This document shows, in pieces, positions 18,849-29,776 of a stretch of DNA of 42,790 nucleotides. A model generated the notes under the pieces. It saw only the letters and a list, made by a program, of their open reading frames with translations. It did no database searches and had not been told where the DNA came from. The stretch comes from an uncultured Clostridia bacterium (lineage in GTDB: Bacteria; Bacillota; Clostridia; Oscillospirales; Ruminococcaceae). The translations under genes and the position numbers were made by a program. Every line of letters begins with the position of its first letter. Within the stretch, counting starts at the first letter, position 1. The stretch is taken from the NCBI GenBank assembly GCA_944382885.1, contig CALWNT010000124.1, forward strand, positions 1 through 42,790. The letters are read 5' to 3'.

Positions 18849-19579
18849 TTACTGCTCCTCTTGACTGTTTTTCTCCGCATCCGCCTGCTTTGAAAAAGGC
18901 TGATACTCTTCCAATGACAAATGAACGATCGGCGTGACCTGTCCTTCTCCGCTGGAATCTGGAAGATAAAATAGAATCGACATAGTAGAGCTCCCCACCA
19001 GAGAAGTAAAATCCCTGCTCTCCGGCATATCCGTCTGGGAAAGGCGTTCTCTCCAGTCAGAGTCGCTGAACTGGGATAGCGTGTCATAGAGCGCTCCTTC
19101 CGCCTGTTCCAGCGCCTTGCCGCGCACCAGCGATACAAACCCATCGCTGATGTTGACCATCTCAGACAAAGAGACCCGCTCTTCCTCCTCCAAAGAAATC
19201 TGTATGGTAAACCCGATGTAGCTGCTCCCTTCTTCTGTGGACAAATTGCCCTGAAACAACAGGCTTATCACTCCATTTTGCGTACCGGTGCTGTTTCCGG
19301 TAAGGGAAAACGCCTTATCCGATGTAAGACTTCCGTATTTAGATAGCTCTCGGGGATTTCCTCTAAAATTTGCTCTATCGGCAGAGAAGCCTCTTCCTGT
19401 AGTAATTCAGGACAGTTCACTTCTACCTTTTCGAAACCGGGAACAGAAAGCCTTTGTACCTTTTGAACCTGACTTTCCTCCGGAGAAATTTCCTCCTGCT
19501 CCGGGCTGACTTTATGACAGCCGGTAAGGACAGTTAACAGCAGACAGGCTATCCCAAAAAGCGCGGCAAACTTTCTCAC
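18849..19579 (-). pseudogene. Lipoprotein of unknown function, frameshifted
   Basis: The first frame (19579-19268) starts with GTG and a lipoprotein signal peptide ending LLTVLTGC (lipid-modified Cys21), followed by an acidic linker. The second frame (to 18849) carries a globular domain with GFTIQISLEEEERVSLSEM and a closing STMSILFYLP segment, loosely like DUF3298/RsiV-type extracellular domains. The second frame is open well upstream of its first start and reads RELSKYGSLTSDKAFSLTGN. Adding one C to the CCCC run (minus strand; 19352-19355) joins the frames as EEIPRELSKYGS. The GTG start overlaps the thioesterase stop by 4 bases. It may be a real mutation or a base-calling error. Confidence 0.7.
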
Positions 19580-20007
19580 GCTTTTTCTCTCCCTTTTTCC
19601 TGCGCCTCCAGAAGCAAGGCGTAAATCTCTGGAAATTTTTTCTGCAAATTCATCGGTTTCAGGTTTAAATCCGTCCAGGCATGAAGGGTAGTTCCGGTGT
19701 TAATGAGTTCTCCCTTTTGATTCCATACCTCATAATAAAACTCAATTTTCACCCGTGTCAAAAGACGGACGGAAACCGTTACCTTCAATTCATCCTCATA
19801 ATGGGCAGGACGAATATATCTGCTGGACAGTTCTACCAGCGGCAGCATAATCCCCATCTGCTCCATCTGAGAATAGCTCATGCCAAAGGCCTTGATATAT
19901 TCCGTTCTCGCCGCCTCATACCAAATCGGATAGACGGAGTGATGCGCCACCCCCATCTGATCGGTTTCCGCATATCGTACCACTATTTTAGTGCCTAAAA
20001 AATCCAT
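19576..20007 (-). CDS. Acyl-CoA thioesterase (YbgC/FadM, hot-dog fold)
   Basis: A 143-residue 4HBT-family thioesterase hydrolysing acyl-CoA. The catalytic signature YAETDQMGVAHHSVYPIWYE is near the N-terminus with the active-site aspartate, followed by the YIRPAHYEDEL strand. ATG 20007 has GGGAGG eight bases upstream; 11 extra upstream residues are rejected. It is the first gene of the six-gene operon ending at 15281. The substrate chain is not predictable. Confidence 0.9.
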   Translation of the reverse strand: MDFLGTKIVVRYAETDQMGVAHHSVYPIWYEAARTEYIKAFGMSYSQMEQMGIMLPLVELSSRYIRPAHYEDELKVTVSVRLLTRVKIEFYYEVWNQKGELINTGTTLHAWTDLNLKPMNLQKKFPEIYALLLEAQEKGREKA

Positions 20008-20042
20008 GAAGACATCCTCCCCTATTTTTCTGCTTTCCACAT

Positions 20043-20073: not shown

Positions 20074-20131
20074 AAGGGAACCGCTGTCCCACTGTCAAAA
20101 ACAGGGTTTTCCATGCTTCCACAGAAAACCC
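20069..20131 (-). terminator. Tandem terminator hairpins after the acyl-CoA synthetase gene
   Basis: First hairpin: 8-bp stem GGGTTTTC/GAAAACCC (20104-20131) followed on the minus strand by TGTTTTTG. Second: short GGGA/TCCC stem (20076-20090) followed by seven T. Together they separate the synthetase operon from the thioesterase operon. Confidence 0.7.
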
Positions 20132-20174
20132 CAATTTTCTTCCTGTTCCCACGGCAGATACCCGTGCAGAACTA

Positions 20175-22463
20175 TTATTTTTCTTCCTGTCTCAATTCCA
20201 CCCGGCGGATCTTTCCGCTGATGGTTTTCGGCAGTTCGTCTAAAAACTCAACCACTCTCGGATATTTATAAGGCGCTGTACGCTCTTTGACATAGTTCTG
20301 AATTTCCTTTTTCAGTTCCTCTGTCCGCTCCGTGCCCTTTGTCAAAACGATGGAGGCTTTTACCACCTGTCCGCGAACCGGATCGGGCGTTCCTGTGACG
20401 CCGCATTCCAGTACATAAGGAAGCTCCATCAGCACACTCTCAATTTCAAAGGGGCCGATTCGGTAACCGGAAGACTTGATAATATCGTCTGTCCGGCCTA
20501 CATACCAAAAATATCCTTCTTCATCGCACCACGCAGTATCTCCGGTATGATAATATCCGTCATGCCATGCTTCCTCACTCAGCTGAGGATTGCGGTAATA
20601 GCCGTCAAACATGCCGCAGGGATGCCCCTTACTGGTATTCAGACAGATTTCTCCTGTTTCGCCTGGTTTTACCGGCACCCCGTCATGATCCAACAGCACG
20701 ACGTCATACTGGGGATTCGCTTTCCCCATGGAGCCTGGCACAGATTCCGTTCCAATAAGGGTTCCCAGCACCAGCGTAGTTTCTGTCTGGCCGAAGCCCT
20801 CCATAATATTCAGTCCGGTGGCCTTCTTCCACTGATAGAACACCTCTGCGTTTAACGCTTCTCCCGCTGTACAGCTGTATTCCAGAGAGGACAAGTCGTA
20901 TTTGCTTAGATCCTCCTTGATAAACATGCGGTACATCGTCGGCGGAGCACAGAAAGTTGTGATATGGTGCTTGGCAAACATGGTAAGAATATCGTCTGCA
21001 TGGAAACGGTCAAAATCATAGGCAAAGATGGCAGCCTCACACAGCCACTGGCCGTAAATTTTTCCCCAAACCGCCTTAGCCCAGCCGGTTTCGGAGATTG
21101 CAAAATGAAGCCCGTTGGGATCTACATTATGCCACCAGCGAGCTGTGACGATATGTCCCAAAGGATAGGTAAAGTCATGGACAGCAATTTTGGGATAACC
21201 GGTGGTGCCGGAGGTAAAGTACATCAGCATGGGATCTGTACTCAAGGTAGCCTCCTCTCCCCATGGGCGCGGGAAGATATCCGACATCTGCTCATATTCC
21301 TCTGTAAAGCTGCGCCAGCCTTCTCTTTTGCCATTTACGATAATTTTTACTTCCACCGTAGGAGATTCCGGCAACGCTTCTTCTACCGCGTGGGCAACTT
21401 CCCCGTCCGCAGTACACAAAATCGCCTTTACTCCGGCCGCATTAAAGCGATAAGCCAAATCCTTTTTGGTCAGCTGATTGGTGGCCGGGATGGCTACCGC
21501 TCCCAGCTTATGCAAAGCCACCAGGGTAAACCAGAATTCATAATGGCGTTTTAAAATCAGCATGACCCGGTCGCCCTTCTGGATTCCCAAGGACTTCAGA
21601 TAGTTGGCCACCTTGGAGGACTCTTTGGAAATCTGAGCAAAGGTGAAATTTTTCACTTCATGGTCATTGGATTCCCAGACCATCGCCAGCTTCTTCGGAT
21701 CCTGTCCGCCAAGCACATCCACTACGTCAAAACCGAAGTTGAAATGCTCTGGAATCTGAAACTGAATATCTTTCAAATTTCCCTTTTCATCCAAAGTTTC
21801 CTGAACATAGCGTTTATAAAGCAGGTTGTCCCTCGTACGGAGCTTGGCCGGTTCTTCCTTCGGCACCACACGGCGGATCTCTTCTTCGTTGTCCAGCTCA
21901 CCCTTGATTCCGATCGCTAAAAAACGGCAGTCCTTGCCATCGATAGCCACCATGCCGTGTTCATGAGAAGCGTCATAATAGATGCTGTCTCCGGCATGCA
22001 AGATTTCACAATGTCCATCGACCCAGATTTTCAGCGTACCTTCCAGCACATAATCCAGCTCCTGTCCGGCATGGGTCGTCATCCCTACCGGCGCCTCTTC
22101 AGCATCTTTGCTGTAAGCGACAAATACTTCGCAGGGTTCTGCCAGACGATCTTTCAAAACAGACGCCAGATGGCGATATTCAAAGCCTTCCCGGCGTTTG
22201 AGAGGCATTCCATGTCCGTTCCGGCAGACAGTGTAGGTTTCCAGCCGAGGGGCTTTCCCCGTTACGATCTCGCTGATATCCACTCCTAAATAATCGGAGC
22301 AGGTAACCAAAAACGCCACGGTCATATCCTTTTGGCCGCTTTCGTATACCCGGTATTCTTCTTCGGTCACACCTGTGGCCCGAGCCATATCCTGTACGGA
22401 ACGCTGGGACATTTCCCGCAGTCCTTTCAGTCTTCCCGCTACTGATTTTAAACGATTGTTCAT
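20175..22463 (-). CDS. XRE helix-turn-helix + cupin + acyl-CoA synthetase fusion
   Basis: A single uninterrupted 762-residue frame with three parts. Residues about 8-64 form an XRE-type DNA-binding helix-turn-helix (RLKGLREMSQRSVQDMARATG). Residues about 110-186 form a cupin sensor barrel (THAGQELDYVLEGTLKIWVD, then HAGDSIYYDASHEHG). This HTH-cupin arrangement is a common stand-alone regulator. From about 205 to the end is a complete ANL-superfamily acyl-CoA synthetase of the medium-chain/AcsM type: YFTSGTTGYPK (415-425), GFGQTET, YHTGDTAW, GRTDDIIKSSGYRIGP and the PKTISGKIRR lysine. It would make acyl-AMP then acyl-CoA. It is 17 bases downstream of a 2-hydroxyacid dehydrogenase. The acyl substrate is unknown. 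Confidence 0.93.
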   Translation of the reverse strand: MNNRLKSVAGRLKGLREMSQRSVQDMARATGVTEEEYRVYESGQKDMTVAFLVTCSDYLGVDISEIVTGKAPRLETYTVCRNGHGMPLKRREGFEYRHLASVLKDRLAEPCEVFVAYSKDAEEAPVGMTTHAGQELDYVLEGTLKIWVDGHCEILHAGDSIYYDASHEHGMVAIDGKDCRFLAIGIKGELDNEEEIRRVVPKEEPAKLRTRDNLLYKRYVQETLDEKGNLKDIQFQIPEHFNFGFDVVDVLGGQDPKKLAMVWESNDHEVKNFTFAQISKESSKVANYLKSLGIQKGDRVMLILKRHYEFWFTLVALHKLGAVAIPATNQLTKKDLAYRFNAAGVKAILCTADGEVAHAVEEALPESPTVEVKIIVNGKREGWRSFTEEYEQMSDIFPRPWGEEATLSTDPMLMYFTSGTTGYPKIAVHDFTYPLGHIVTARWWHNVDPNGLHFAISETGWAKAVWGKIYGQWLCEAAIFAYDFDRFHADDILTMFAKHHITTFCAPPTMYRMFIKEDLSKYDLSSLEYSCTAGEALNAEVFYQWKKATGLNIMEGFGQTETTLVLGTLIGTESVPGSMGKANPQYDVVLLDHDGVPVKPGETGEICLNTSKGHPCGMFDGYYRNPQLSEEAWHDGYYHTGDTAWCDEEGYFWYVGRTDDIIKSSGYRIGPFEIESVLMELPYVLECGVTGTPDPVRGQVVKASIVLTKGTERTEELKKEIQNYVKERTAPYKYPRVVEFLDELPKTISGKIRRVELRQEEK

Positions 22464-22480: not shown

Positions 22481-23446
22481 TTATTTCACCTGATTTTGGA
22501 TTTCGCCCTTTAAAAATCCAGCAAGGTTGTCATAGACGATATCCAACAAACGCTGCCTGGTTTCTCTCGGCGCCCAGGCGGTATGAGGGGTAATACAGAT
22601 ATTTTTGGCAGTCAAAAGAGGATTATCCTGTCGGATCGGTTCTTGAGAAACCACGTCCACATACGCCGCACTGATTTGCCCCTGATCCAGAGCCTCTTTT
22701 AAGTCCTGCTCACAGAGCACCGGGCCTCTGGCCGTATTGATCAGCACAGCTGTAGATTTCATCTGTTCAAACTGTTCTTTGCAAAACATCCCCTGAGTCT
22801 GAGGAGTCAGCGGGCAGTGGACGGACACAAAATCGCTCCGCTTTAAAAGTTCCGAAAAAGAAACAAACTCCACAAAGGGAAATTGCGCTCTGTCCTCCTG
22901 CCGAACGGTACGGGTAGATACCAGCACCTTCATATCAAATGCTAAGGCAAGCTTCGCCACCTGTTTTGCGATATGGCCGAACCCAATCAGTCCGATTGTT
23001 TTTCCCTGAAGCTCCATCAATCCCGTCTCGTAGAAGCAGAAATTTTTTGCGTTCTGCCACTCTCCCGCCATGACGCGGCGGTGATGCCGGTCTATTTTGT
23101 TGCAGTAATGCAGAAGATAGGCAAACACCTGCTGCGCCACCGCTTTGGTAGAATAATCCGGTACATTGGTAACCACGATCCCCCGTTCCGAACAGGCTTT
23201 CAGATCGATGATGTTATAACCGGTGGCAGTAACTCCGATATAACGCAAAGACGGACATTGCTCCAAAACCGCTCGGTCAATCGTACATTTATTGGTGATG
23301 ACAAGCTCCGCGCTTCCAATTCTCTCCGCGATTTTTTCCGGCGCAGTGCGTGGATAGACCGAAAGCTGCGCTAAAGAAGCAAATGGATCAAAACTCAAAT
23401 CATCCGCTGCTACCGCATAGGAATCCAAAACCACTAATCTCATCAT
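22481..23446 (-). CDS. D-2-hydroxyacid dehydrogenase (NAD-dependent)
   Basis: A 321-residue reductase of the glycerate/hydroxypyruvate/2-oxoacid dehydrogenase family. The nucleotide loop IGLIGFGHIAKQVA is at about 151-164, and the catalytic Arg (NTARGPVL), Glu (VVSQEP) and His (ITPHTAWA) are all present. Family members reduce 2-oxoacids to (R)-2-hydroxyacids. GAGG precedes the two adjacent ATGs (23446 or 23443). It is the first gene of the operon with the HTH-cupin-synthetase, which suggests that the hydroxyacid or a related acid is activated to a CoA thioester (inference). Confidence 0.9.
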   Translation of the reverse strand: MMRLVVLDSYAVAADDLSFDPFASLAQLSVYPRTAPEKIAERIGSAELVITNKCTIDRAVLEQCPSLRYIGVTATGYNIIDLKACSERGIVVTNVPDYSTKAVAQQVFAYLLHYCNKIDRHHRRVMAGEWQNAKNFCFYETGLMELQGKTIGLIGFGHIAKQVAKLALAFDMKVLVSTRTVRQEDRAQFPFVEFVSFSELLKRSDFVSVHCPLTPQTQGMFCKEQFEQMKSTAVLINTARGPVLCEQDLKEALDQGQISAAYVDVVSQEPIRQDNPLLTAKNICITPHTAWAPRETRQRLLDIVYDNLAGFLKGEIQNQVK

Positions 23447-23527: not shown

Positions 23528-23543
23528 TGCTTTTCAAAAAGCA
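23528..23543 (-). promoter_or_regulatory. Palindrome in the leader of the dehydrogenase-synthetase operon
   Basis: TGCTTTTCAAAAAGCA is a perfect 7-2-7 inverted repeat roughly 20-35 bases downstream of the -10 box. Its size suits a dimeric HTH protein; the fusion protein encoded by the operon is the obvious candidate binder, by inference. Confidence 0.4.
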
Positions 23544-23563: not shown

Positions 23564-23592
23564 ATTATACTACATTCCAGCGGTAATTTCCA
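23564..23592 (-). promoter_or_regulatory. Promoter of the dehydrogenase-synthetase operon
   Basis: TATAAT on the minus strand (23569-23564) with a weak TGGAAA -35 (4 of 6) 17 bases upstream. The leader is about 110 bases. Confidence 0.55.
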
Positions 23593-26844: not shown

Positions 26845-27114
26845 AACTTTTGACATACTAAAAGGGCTGTGAAGAGATCAACCGAATGGTTTCGCAATTT
26901 CAGAGAAAAACTCCTGGGCTGAAAGAGTTTCATTGCATCTTCGGGCGCCGTCTCAGAGCCGACAGTGACGAGCTGTACGTCCTCCCGCGTTAAGGGAATC
27001 AATGAAGCGGTGAAAGAACGCCGTAAAGACGGCTTCTTTGACAAATTGGGTGGTACCACGGAAACTGTAAGAGCCTTCGTCCCATAAAAGATGGAACAAG
27101 GGCTCTTTTTATTA
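26845..27114 (+). ncRNA. T-box riboswitch controlling alaS
   Basis: A tRNA-sensing leader of about 270 bases. The T-box core GGGTGGTACCACGG lies near 27048-27061. It is followed by an intrinsic terminator whose stem pairs AAGAGCCTT (27069-27077) with 27099-27107 and ends in a T-run. Stem I contains the AGAGA kink-turn motif near 26872 and candidate alanine specifier codons (GCG 26945-26947 or GCC 26947-26949). Uncharged tRNA-Ala would stabilise the antiterminator and switch on alaS. Confidence 0.92.
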
Positions 27115-27142: not shown

Positions 27143-29776
27143 ATGGAATGGACTGGCTTAAACGAGCTGAGAGAAAAATTCTTGAGTTTCTTTGAGAAGA
27201 AACAGCATACCCGCTTGCAGAGCTTCCCGCTGCTTCCCCAGGGGGATAACAGCTTACTGCTGATTAACTCCGGCATGGCGCCGATGAAAAAATGGTTTTT
27301 AGGACAGGAAACCCCTCCCAACAAGCGGGTCACCACCTGCCAGAAATGTATCCGTACACCGGATATTGAAAATGTAGGGAAAACCGCCCGTCACGGCACC
27401 TTTTTTGAGATGCTCGGCAACTTCTCCTTCGGAGATTATTTCAAGCATGAAGCGACGAAATGGGCCTGGGAATTTGTGACCGAGGAGTTAAAACTTCCCG
27501 TGGACCGTCTGTGGGTTTCGGTCTATGAAGATGACGACGAGGCAATCGATATCTGGGTCAACGAAGTAGGCGTTGACCGCAGCCATATCGTCCGTATGGG
27601 AAAAGAGGACAACTTCTGGGAAATCGGCGCAGGTCCCTGCGGTCCCTGCTCGGAAATTTACTTTGACCGGGGCGAGGACAAAGGCTGCGGCCGCCCGGAC
27701 TGCGCCGTAGGCTGCGAATGCGACCGCTTTGTAGAGTTCTGGAACCTGGTGTTCAGCCAGTTCGACAACGACGGCGAAGGACATTACACCAAACTGGAAC
27801 ATCCCAACATCGATACCGGTATGGGATTAGAGCGTTTAGCCTGCATTATGCAGGGGGTAGACAACCTCTTTGAGGTAGATACGATTCAGAATATCATGAA
27901 GCATATCAGCCAAATCGCTGGTGTAAATTATCACGACGACCCGAAAAAGGATGTTTCCCTCCGGGTTATCACCGATCATATTCGTTCTACTGTCTTTATG
28001 CTGGCTGATGGTGTCACTCCATCCAACGAAGGCAGGGGCTATGTTTTGAGAAGGCTGCTTCGCCGGGCTGCCCGTCACGGCAGACTTTTGGGAATCAACC
28101 GTCCCTTCTTATATGAAGTAGTCTCTACAGTGGCGAAGGAAAACGCCGTGGCTTATCCGGAACTAACCGAAAAACAGGCTTATCTGGAAAAGACCATCAA
28201 GTTTGAAGAAGAAAACTTCAACCGCACCATTGATAAAGGATTCGAGATGTTAAATCAGCTGATCGACGAGGTTGAAAATTCTCAGGGAAATACCCTTTCC
28301 GGAGAAGACGCCTTCAAGCTTTACGACACCTACGGATTCCCCATCGATTTAACCAAGGAAATCGTGGGAGAAAAAGGTCTGGAATTAGACGAAGACGCCT
28401 TTATCAAACTGATGGACGCCCAGAGAGAACGCGCCAGAAAAGCCAGAATGTCTATGGAGGACGTGGCTTGGGCCGACGAAGTCTTAAAGCTCGACGGTGT
28501 TCAAACCGAATTTGTGGGCTACCATACCCTGAAAGCTCAGGGAAAAGTTTTGGCGATTTTGATGGACAATGAGTCCGTCTCCTCCGCGGCCGCCGGACAG
28601 AAGGCTACCATTGTATTTGATAAAACCCCGTTTTATGCGGAAAGCGGCGGACAGGTTGCCGATAAGGGGAAAATTTCCAACGAAAATTGTCTTGCTGGAG
28701 TGTTAGACGTTCAGAAAACCACTACCGGGCTGTTTATCCATGTTTGTGAAATCCAAAGCGGTATAATCTCGGTAGGAGATACCGTTGAGTTAGAAGTAGC
28801 CAAATACATCCGGGAAGCTATTATGAGAAATCATACCGCAGCCCACCTGCTTCAGGCCGCACTGCGAAATGTGCTGGGCGACCATGTGCATCAGGCAGGA
28901 CAGCTTGTTACCGCCGACACCCTGCGCTTTGACTTCTCTCACTTTGAGGCCATGACAAAAGAAGAAATCCAGAAGGTAGAACAGCAGGTCAACGCCAAAA
29001 TCTTTGAATGTCTTCCAGTTACAGTGAAAGAAATGAACATCGAAGATGCGAAAAAGACAGGCGCCATGGCGTTGTTCGGAGAAAAATATGGCGACGTGGT
29101 TCGGGTAGTTGACGCTGGCGGTTATTCTGTAGAATTCTGCGGCGGTACCCATGTGGACAACACCTCTAAGATCGGATTATTCAAGATTGTAAGTGAGTCC
29201 TCTGTCGCCGCAGGTGTCCGCCGTGTCGAGGCGAAAACCGGCATGCAGATTCTGGAACTCTTGCGGGAATCCTCCATGACTATTCAGAAAGCCGCCGCTC
29301 AGTTAAAGCTTTCCAACTCCGGAGAGCTTGTGGATAAATGTGCTTCTCTGATGAGTGAACTGAAGGAAAAAAATCATGAAATCGAACATTTAAACCAGAA
29401 ACTGGCTTCCATGCAGTTTGGAAATATTCTGGAAAATGCTCAGGAAGTAGCAGGCCTGAAAGTAGTATCCGCCATGATTACCGATGCAAAATCCGAAATT
29501 CTGAGAAACATGGGCGATAAACTAAAGGAACAGGAACCGAACGTAGTAGGCATTTTGGTCGGCGTCAATCCAGAGCGCTCTACCATGCTCTGCGTCTGCG
29601 GTAAAGAAGCGGTAAAAAAAGGCGCTCATGCCGGAAAAATCGTCAAAGAAGTAGCCGCCATTACCGGAGGTAAGGGCGGAGGACGTCCGGACAATGCAAT
29701 GGCAGGCGTGATGGACAACAGAAAGATCGATGAAGCGCTCCTTGCATTTCCTGAAATTCTCAAAGGCATTCTGTAA
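27143..29776 (+). CDS. alaS: Alanyl-tRNA synthetase
   Basis: An 877-residue class II synthetase. Catalytic core with LLLINSGMAPMKKWF, TCQKCIRTPDIENVGKTARH and GNFSFGDYFK; then the editing domain with zinc ligands NHTAAHLLQ (HxxxH) and FCGGTHV (CxxxH); then a C-terminal DHHA1 domain ending GGKGGGRPDNAMAG. Length is normal. AAGGAG lies 9 bases before ATG 27143. Expression is governed by the T-box just upstream. A HIT-family gene follows 38 bases downstream. Confidence 0.98.
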   Translation: MEWTGLNELREKFLSFFEKKQHTRLQSFPLLPQGDNSLLLINSGMAPMKKWFLGQETPPNKRVTTCQKCIRTPDIENVGKTARHGTFFEMLGNFSFGDYFKHEATKWAWEFVTEELKLPVDRLWVSVYEDDDEAIDIWVNEVGVDRSHIVRMGKEDNFWEIGAGPCGPCSEIYFDRGEDKGCGRPDCAVGCECDRFVEFWNLVFSQFDNDGEGHYTKLEHPNIDTGMGLERLACIMQGVDNLFEVDTIQNIMKHISQIAGVNYHDDPKKDVSLRVITDHIRSTVFMLADGVTPSNEGRGYVLRRLLRRAARHGRLLGINRPFLYEVVSTVAKENAVAYPELTEKQAYLEKTIKFEEENFNRTIDKGFEMLNQLIDEVENSQGNTLSGEDAFKLYDTYGFPIDLTKEIVGEKGLELDEDAFIKLMDAQRERARKARMSMEDVAWADEVLKLDGVQTEFVGYHTLKAQGKVLAILMDNESVSSAAAGQKATIVFDKTPFYAESGGQVADKGKISNENCLAGVLDVQKTTTGLFIHVCEIQSGIISVGDTVELEVAKYIREAIMRNHTAAHLLQAALRNVLGDHVHQAGQLVTADTLRFDFSHFEAMTKEEIQKVEQQVNAKIFECLPVTVKEMNIEDAKKTGAMALFGEKYGDVVRVVDAGGYSVEFCGGTHVDNTSKIGLFKIVSESSVAAGVRRVEAKTGMQILELLRESSMTIQKAAAQLKLSNSGELVDKCASLMSELKEKNHEIEHLNQKLASMQFGNILENAQEVAGLKVVSAMITDAKSEILRNMGDKLKEQEPNVVGILVGVNPERSTMLCVCGKEAVKKGAHAGKIVKEVAAITGGKGGGRPDNAMAGVMDNRKIDEALLAFPEILKGIL

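Follow-up and report, generated by a model that had tools for sequence, protein, structure and literature searches.

Here we describe a 762-residue protein encoded on the minus strand (20175-22463) of a 42,790-nucleotide stretch of DNA, hereafter the window (contig CALWNT010000124.1, assembly GCA_944382885.1), from an uncultured Clostridia bacterium of the Ruminococcaceae, in which an XRE-type helix-turn-helix (HTH) and a cupin are joined in one chain to an acyl-CoA synthetase. In the reading that we prefer, and to which we give about an even chance of being correct, the HTH-cupin part is a branch-specific control module that acts on the enzyme itself, held in an old, single fusion to a synthetase of branched short-chain acids, and the reporting of substrate state to DNA is disfavoured. 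The basis of this reading is sequence: the fusion and its single origin, the specifiers of T-box leaders, one residue of the acyl pocket, the co-occurrence of genes, an acidic recognition helix and the pattern of gene conversion.

The gene is a single uninterrupted open reading frame (ORF) with an ATG start and an AGGAGG site ahead of it; the same frame on the plus strand holds eight stops. Pfam places AMP-binding at residues 254-623 (E 1.1e-61) and AMP-binding_C at 673-751 (1e-22), both far over their cut-offs, and Cupin_2 at 128-184 (E 3.6e-13), within a cupin barrel of residues 108-186 (21906-22142). The HTH at residues 9-70 was matched by three Pfam models with E from 1.1e-5 to 1.3e-4, all below the curated cut-offs (26.1 of 27, 25.1 of 30.2 and 22.4 of 23 bits); in the genome search HTH_3 exceeded its cut-off with 27.5 bits. 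The AlphaFold2 model of the full-length protein (mean predicted local distance difference test score, pLDDT, 89.6) has helices at residues 2-18, 23-30, 34-41, 49-59 and 63-68, and the HTH fold spans residues 8-70 (22254-22442). An XRE HTH followed by cupin_2 is the domain order of HTH-cupin regulators, here with an HTH under the Pfam cut-offs. A linker of low confidence (residues 189-202, 21858-21899, pLDDT <50), near the junction where split relatives part into two genes, leads to the ANL acyl-CoA synthetase at residues 215-755 (20199-21821). The core motifs YFTSGTTGYPK, EGFGQTET, YHTGD, GRTDDIIKSSGYRIGP and PKTISGK, which we presume to correspond to the A3-A10 numbering, are intact in the translation, and the P-loop, adenylate and catalytic-lysine motifs are intact both there and in the alignment to PDB 3etc. 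An earlier note, made from the letters of the window, had described one frame with an HTH, a cupin and a complete synthetase with intact catalytic motifs; both points are borne out, and the strand, which it did not name, is minus.

The fusion is also open in Massiliimalia timonensis and M. massiliensis, whose proteins share 73-74% identity with the window protein (77-78% in the synthetase), and an Ile-T-box copy in a further genome (G053) shares 69%. Between the two named species dN is 0.06-0.08 in each of the HTH, the cupin and the synthetase, at a dS that is close to saturation or past it, and by these rates the HTH fold is kept under purifying selection. An assembly or frameshift artefact was ruled out, given that the fusion is open in both sister species and in 69 distinct fused proteins, window included. 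An anti-phage reading was also rejected, PADLOC having returned just one weak HTH model (E 0.0011).

The closest solved structure to the synthetase is 3etc (E 4.5e-200), which is also first in Foldseek, with 51% identity in its alignment; we take this entry to be MacsMA, with a preference for 2-methylbutyrate. The best NCBIfam model is MbcS (NF047394) with 462 bits, short of the equivalog cut-off of 850. On these matches, the nearest kin are the branched short-acid enzymes MacsMA and MbcS. MbcS of Staphylococcus aureus selectively activates 2-methylbutyrate and isobutyrate (PMC10026030). The window enzyme and its fused relatives probably activate small branched fatty acids, with thioester formation with CoA predicted; isobutyrate and 2-methylbutyrate are proposed because of this kinship, the T-box specifiers and residue 462 of the acyl pocket, both described below.

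The architecture is widespread in the order and is not a local oddity. Residues 1-205 (the N module), used as the query with E up to 1e-15, matched 173 genomes among 295 from the order and 24 among 299 sampled from the phylum, counts that include the window's own genome. Among the 149 matches listed in the order, window excluded, the open frame is 690 residues or longer for 100, shorter than 300 for 46 and of intermediate length for three. Eighty regions chosen from the listed matches hold 90 N modules: 46 are fused, 38 immediately precede a synthetase encoded as a separate gene, and six have no synthetase within 400 nt. These six same-family N modules are those of L076, L077, L089, L094, L097 and L127, the last with one synthetase about 560 nt beyond it. 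The earlier note would have been refuted had close relatives always lacked the HTH-cupin part; this is not the case, and the fusion is kept among them. That note also knew of no characterised member of the architecture, and in the open-licence PubMed Central literature we likewise found none described, two Pseudomonas regulator papers being what surfaced.

A tree of synthetase domains (139 rows) places all 69 fused synthetase domains (C domains) in one clade (support 97), with two C-only rows, L022 and L038, inside it and 49 split synthetases outside. Since all fused domains share one clade and the split ones lie outside, the tree indicates that an old pair of neighbouring HTH-cupin and synthetase genes fused once and that the window copy descends from that event.

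Most fused genes stand behind a T-box leader that reads isoleucine or valine. RF00230 exceeded its gathering threshold immediately upstream of the gene at eight of 20 loci searched with Rfam, and among the 68 distinct fused genes that have 350 nt or more of upstream sequence a Stem I covariance model (R1) detected a leader at 59, at a distance of 160-318 nt from the start of the N-module match. The triplet at what we take to be the specifier position within Stem I is ATC (Ile) in 41 leaders, GTA in 17 and GTC in one (both Val), and is Ile or Val in all. R1 was built from 25 leaders chosen by a pattern allowing ATC, GTA or GTC, and leans that way; it still caught other triplets, namely CTC in the downstream leader of L077 and those in some of ten own-genome T-boxes. 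For the count, eight R1 matches that were weak, off-gene or truncated were removed beforehand, the duplicate loci L031, L032, L062 and L074 were excluded, L017 and L097 were taken as one gene, giving 68 distinct, and leaders were paired with genes within 700 nt. Five matches stayed unpaired: L074 (a duplicate of L023), L078, L028, L063 and L077. In L078 an Ile leader lies 877 nt upstream of a split pair, in L028 (1180-1296) an Ile-reading leader stands before a same-family synthetase without any HTH-cupin, and the match in L063 carries a Val triplet and lies downstream of the gene. No Stem I leader was found in any of seven N-only records.

Tandem fused pairs in which both leaders could be read number 12, and in every one an Ile leader precedes the first copy and a Val leader the second. 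Fourteen further loci chosen solely by tandem N-module matches all gave the same order; L237 repeats L008, which leaves 13 new pairs, and L236 duplicates L019 in one half. In the open-licence PubMed Central literature we found no report of an acyl-CoA synthetase behind a T-box; a Geobacter paper found with this topic has a leuA T-box as its subject.

The type of the leader is matched by the stretch T459-G-W-A462-K-A-V465 of the synthetase (21069-21089). Residue 462, which we presume to be linked to the acyl pocket, comes just after the tryptophan of TGW-x-K and is Gly in 3etc. All 41 Ile-type C domains scored have Gly at this position and all 17 Val-type ones have Ala (the second C domain of L008, too short, was left out); residue 465 is Leu in 39 of the 41 and Met or Ala in all 17. 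For residue 462 the rule held in C domains that were not used to find it (13 of 13 and 13 of 13). All seven split Ile-type pairs have Gly462, and the sole split Val-type pair gave no readable pattern match. The Ala/Gly split is physically reasonable, in that the smaller acid would be matched by the smaller pocket.

The neighbouring genes point in the same metabolic direction. Among 46 neighbourhoods, 12 contain three families resembling subunits of a 2-oxoacid:ferredoxin oxidoreductase together with a P-loop protein (beside the oxidoreductase genes in L177 and L034, for example), and seven of these also contain a branched-chain aminotransferase (BCAT). A representative VorB (alpha subunit) and a BCAT score over the respective NCBIfam cut-offs. 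For the beta and gamma subunits no family was returned at the E 1e-40 threshold, and they were named by eye. Counted by genome with kinship ignored, a synthetase match and VorB co-occur in 100 relatives (46 of 64 versus 6 of 36 genomes, p 9e-8), VorB is present in 16 of 19 genomes with a fused copy (the exceptions being the window genome, G003 and G088) and in 13 of 13 with a T-box-fused copy, and KARI, an enzyme of de novo Ile and Val synthesis, is missing from 11 of these 13 versus 27 of 87 others (p 3e-4), or from 7 of 9 versus 18 of 66 where completeness is at least 90% (p 0.005). A paper on rumen microbes describes 2-methylbutyrate and isobutyrate as Ile and Val precursors (PMC7356843). 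Given the T-box specifiers, residue 462, the presence of VorB and the frequent absence of KARI, the relatives probably make 2-methylbutyryl- or isobutyryl-CoA for Ile and Val, which suggests that the fused enzyme feeds the synthesis of these amino acids from branched short acids by reductive carboxylation.

The HTH-cupin part differs with the type of enzyme that it is attached to. N-module positions 50, 54, 91, 97 and 111 separate the Ile and Val types completely, and the Val-type N modules form one clade (support 99); on the tree of synthetase domains the Val type requires three changes. In 24 tandem pairs, copies within a genome are more alike than copies across genomes by 2.4 to 3.7 points (p<=1.5e-4) in five segments of the synthetase body, and by 1.8 points (p 0.03) in segment 556-592. 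No clear excess was seen in these pairs for the HTH (+0.4, p 0.24), linker plus cupin (+0.4, p 0.12), the whole N module (+0.4, p 0.08) or the pocket (+0.2, p 0.38); L232 was excluded from the permutation, being truncated and the second pair from its genome. At the DNA level, three pairs have 60-bp blocks of the body reaching 96-100% identity, with 45-66% over codons 30-149 and 68-81% over codons 150-189, the end of the cupin. Because a shared amino-acid bias would have lifted the N module too, we attribute the similarity to gene conversion, which appears to homogenise the synthetase body and to spare both the pocket and the HTH-cupin.

Type-specific differences peak at HTH helices 4-5 (residues 45-69, +34 points) and over residues 85-129 (+26 to +33). 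The maxima in the synthetase are +13 at 205-229 and +10 to +12 around the pocket (425-489), and the recognition-helix stretch 25-49, at +12, is about level with these. Since conversion appears to spare the HTH-cupin and the pocket, and type-specific differences are raised in both, the two appear to be kept as a matched set, and branch-specific control on the enzyme is the simplest use of such a set. The same peaks would also fit a module for oligomerisation or insulation, which would keep Ile and Val types in separate homo-oligomers, or hold partners, without any sensing, and the coexistence of tandem copies in one genome adds to that case. We consider it quite unlikely: the residues of a putative metal site, H131, E135 and H169, are invariant and would be needless for a scaffold, and the HTH-cupin gene is also found split and single.

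The earlier note had proposed that the enzyme reports its substrate or acyl-adenylate state to DNA. One half of this proposal is strengthened, in that the HTH-cupin is tied to the acid served through its type-specific residues and the conversion pattern. The other half, the reporting to DNA, is opposed by the recognition helix, by the Ile or Val T-box already ahead of most fused genes and by searches that found no conserved operator, with a weak signal left in leaders without a T-box. The mean net charge of the HTH core is -3.5 in fused proteins (n=69, range -8 to 0) and -4.3 in split ones (n=50), against +1.7 (-3 to 6) in controls, which were 26 XRE domains extracted by a hidden Markov model from the window's own genome and whose range overlaps. 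Acidic residues at recognition positions average 1.90 in fused, 1.64 in split and 0.12 in control domains, and the window HTH has three glutamates at these positions, within the helix TEEEYRVYESG. As a sequence proxy, these acidic contact positions do not match the recognition helix of a DNA-binding protein. The conserved R16 and E41 we take to be structural in the HTH fold.

Motif searches of the leaders and comparison with the sister species found no conserved operator upstream of the fusion family. Two candidates were rejected: a palindromic expectation-maximisation motif upstream of 128 N modules is the T-box core, and a second palindrome, located between the leader and the start codon, was recognised on visual inspection as the T-box terminator. 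In 58 leaders without a T-box, the palindrome log-likelihood is 79 versus 43-45 in three shuffles at width 18, with a modest excess at each width that is inflated by related genomes. The window itself has one candidate operator, the perfect 7-2-7 inverted repeat TGCTTTT-TG-AAAAGCA (23528-23543), just downstream of a promoter-like site; it has one other site in the genome (G000:C66:37766-37781) and is not in the upstream regions of the two sister species.

A trigger enzyme, whose HTH binds DNA and whose acid, acyl-AMP or acyl-CoA state sets repression of its own or another operon, could draw on the window palindrome and the modest excess in leaders without a T-box, on the purifying selection of the HTH fold and on methanogen homologues fused to a CopG-like ribbon-helix-helix (RHH) domain. 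We nevertheless regard it as unlikely, with the recognition helix acidic in both fused and split families, the strong palindromes ahead of T-box genes belonging to the T-box, the window palindrome confined as described, and the recognition-helix stretch less type-specific than helices 4-5 (12 versus 34 points).

Fold comparison of the N module raises a further alternative. Its best profile match is to 1y9q, an entry classed as a transcriptional regulator (E 1.5e-12); the match to the fosfomycin epoxidase HppE is slightly weaker (E ~1.7e-10), and both extend across the two domains. HppE is also first in Foldseek, with TM-scores of ~0.33 and a loose model, and H131, E135 and H169, invariant in the aligned fused and split proteins, align with its 2-His-1-Glu triad. 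The HTH-cupin might thus itself be a metalloenzyme of the HppE kind that acts on the acid or a related compound. We consider this very improbable, as the TM-scores are low and the best profile match is the regulator; moreover, the chemistry of HppE is oxidative and the hosts are anaerobes.

Under the preferred reading of on-enzyme control, an ancestral HTH-cupin gene fused once to the branched short-chain acyl-CoA synthetase gene directly after it, and in most of the fused relatives fetched the gene stands behind an Ile or Val T-box. The synthetase would make 2-methylbutyryl-CoA in the Gly462 type or isobutyryl-CoA in the Ala462 type, to be carboxylated by the branched-chain 2-oxoacid:ferredoxin oxidoreductase and then transaminated to isoleucine or valine. 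The cupin would bind a metabolite of its branch, a candidate being the 2-oxoacid chelated by a metal on H131, E135 and H169. The module would dimerise through the HTH fold and tune the synthetase that it is joined to, and would not work as a conventional DNA repressor; helices 4-5 may stop the Ile and Val types from mixing. More tentatively, and at a little less than even, we propose that a transcription-factor fold has become an on-enzyme sensor that throttles its own synthetase, giving control in two tiers, by tRNA charging through the T-box and by the metabolite, with conversion rewriting the body of the enzyme and selection holding the sensor and pocket together.

The window copy, from Massiliimalia, is a derived member of the fused family, with Ala462 and Val465 where both sister species have Gly462 and Val465. 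Its gene looks like the second of a two-gene unit behind a D-2-hydroxyacid dehydrogenase (22481-23446, minus; Pfam and NCBIfam), from which it is separated by 17 nt, and the arrangement also occurs in both named Massiliimalia species. A consensus scan places a promoter-like site, TGGAAA-17-TATAAT, at 23564-23592 (minus; 12 such sites in the region versus 6.3 in shuffles), and a terminator-like hairpin with a 14-pair stem and a T run lies 3' of the fusion at 20102-20133 (minus; 8 versus 5.9), so that both scans hit the region at up to about twice the shuffled rate. Beyond the hairpin lies a gene for a 4HBT thioesterase (MenI/YbgC-like; 19576-20040, minus), an acyl-CoA-related function, which we left out of the unit because it follows the hairpin and because neither sister species has it next to the fusion. 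Elsewhere in the window, a sub-threshold T-box match at 26860-27087 (plus; 72 bits, gathering 93) lies directly upstream of an alanyl-tRNA synthetase-like gene at 27143. In G001, of the same genus, the situation is the opposite of that in the window genome: VorB is present, and no fusion match was found at E 1e-60.

Several observations weigh against on-enzyme control of an Ile/Val branch, most directly those from the window. No RF00230 leader was found at its fusion gene, no VorB was found in its genome (94% complete), whose only POR_N protein is of PFOR size, and KARI is present; for these three reasons the Ile/Val role extends to the window copy by analogy only. Its type-specific N-module residues are mixed (A50, T54, R91, R97, C111). 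The full AlphaFold2 model, with its low-confidence linker and a predicted template modelling score of 0.69, predicts no docked regulatory interface. Among split pairs a paired T-box was found in only 8 of 50 (ATC in seven, GTC in one). The fixed differences of the Val-type N modules, forming a single clade, count as one event and not many, and the escape of the N module from conversion may have a mechanical cause, its position next to the type-specific leader. In Methanomicrobiales, copies of the same synthetase carry an N-terminal CopG-like RHH domain (L044:5791-7761 and L045:5797-7692, each the second of a tandem pair, the Pfam cut-off being passed in L045 only), which makes them a further case, of independent origin, in which this enzyme is fused to a DNA-binding fold. 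Finally, the substrates, the direction of flux, the ligand, the metal, the dimer and the allostery are all features that we infer.

The acyl-CoA made by the window copy may serve another end, for example branched fatty acids, or an acid handled by the dehydrogenase. The latter can be put more strongly: the window synthetase would have left the branched-acid class altogether and serve another acid tied to the D-2-hydroxyacid dehydrogenase. The missing T-box and VorB, the KARI that is present and the dehydrogenase operon common to both named sister species fit this proposal, as does the pair Ala462/Val465, found in none of 58 T-box-fused C domains scored. The window protein is, however, 74% identical to the Gly462 sister copies and 69% identical to the Ile-T-box copy of G053, and we regard so complete a departure as rather unlikely.

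The analysis offers a predicted switch of substrate at Gly/Ala462 and a predicted formation of Ile and Val from 2-methylbutyrate and isobutyrate, together with a T-box that names the branch served and a regulator fold that apparently acts on the enzyme. A fusion that had not been characterised, and that many genomes of a single clostridial order carry, becomes a testable system, and the annotation of HTH-cupin and AMP-binding gene pairs would be helped. If true, the proposal would show a DNA-binding fold recruited for metabolic control.

Among known systems, trigger enzymes, of which we take PutA to be an example, likewise have an enzyme and a DNA-binding fold in one chain; in the present family DNA binding is not supported, judging by the acidic helix. 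HTH-cupin (XRE-cupin_2) regulators such as 1y9q share the two domains in the same order, whereas the module here belongs to a single enzyme, by fusion or as a gene pair, and has an acidic recognition helix; searches upstream of the family gave no conserved operator, with a weak signal in leaders without a T-box. HppE (1zz6, 4j1x) shares the HTH-cupin fold and the aligned His-x3-Glu...His triad; unlike the fusion, it has no synthetase, being in our understanding an oxidative enzyme. The amino acid genes governed by T-boxes (RF00230) resemble the fused relatives in their Ile or Val leaders, with the window copy differing in having none. MacsMA of Methanosarcina acetivorans (3etc) is related over the whole synthetase and shares the TGW-x-K-type stretch, in which its Gly corresponds to the Ile type; it is archaeal, its solved chain lacks an HTH-cupin, and the window protein has Ala in place of its Gly. 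MbcS provides the best NCBIfam model for the synthetase of the fusion, which scores under the equivalog cut-off; the model spans the synthetase part alone, and MbcS serves the synthesis of branched fatty acids.

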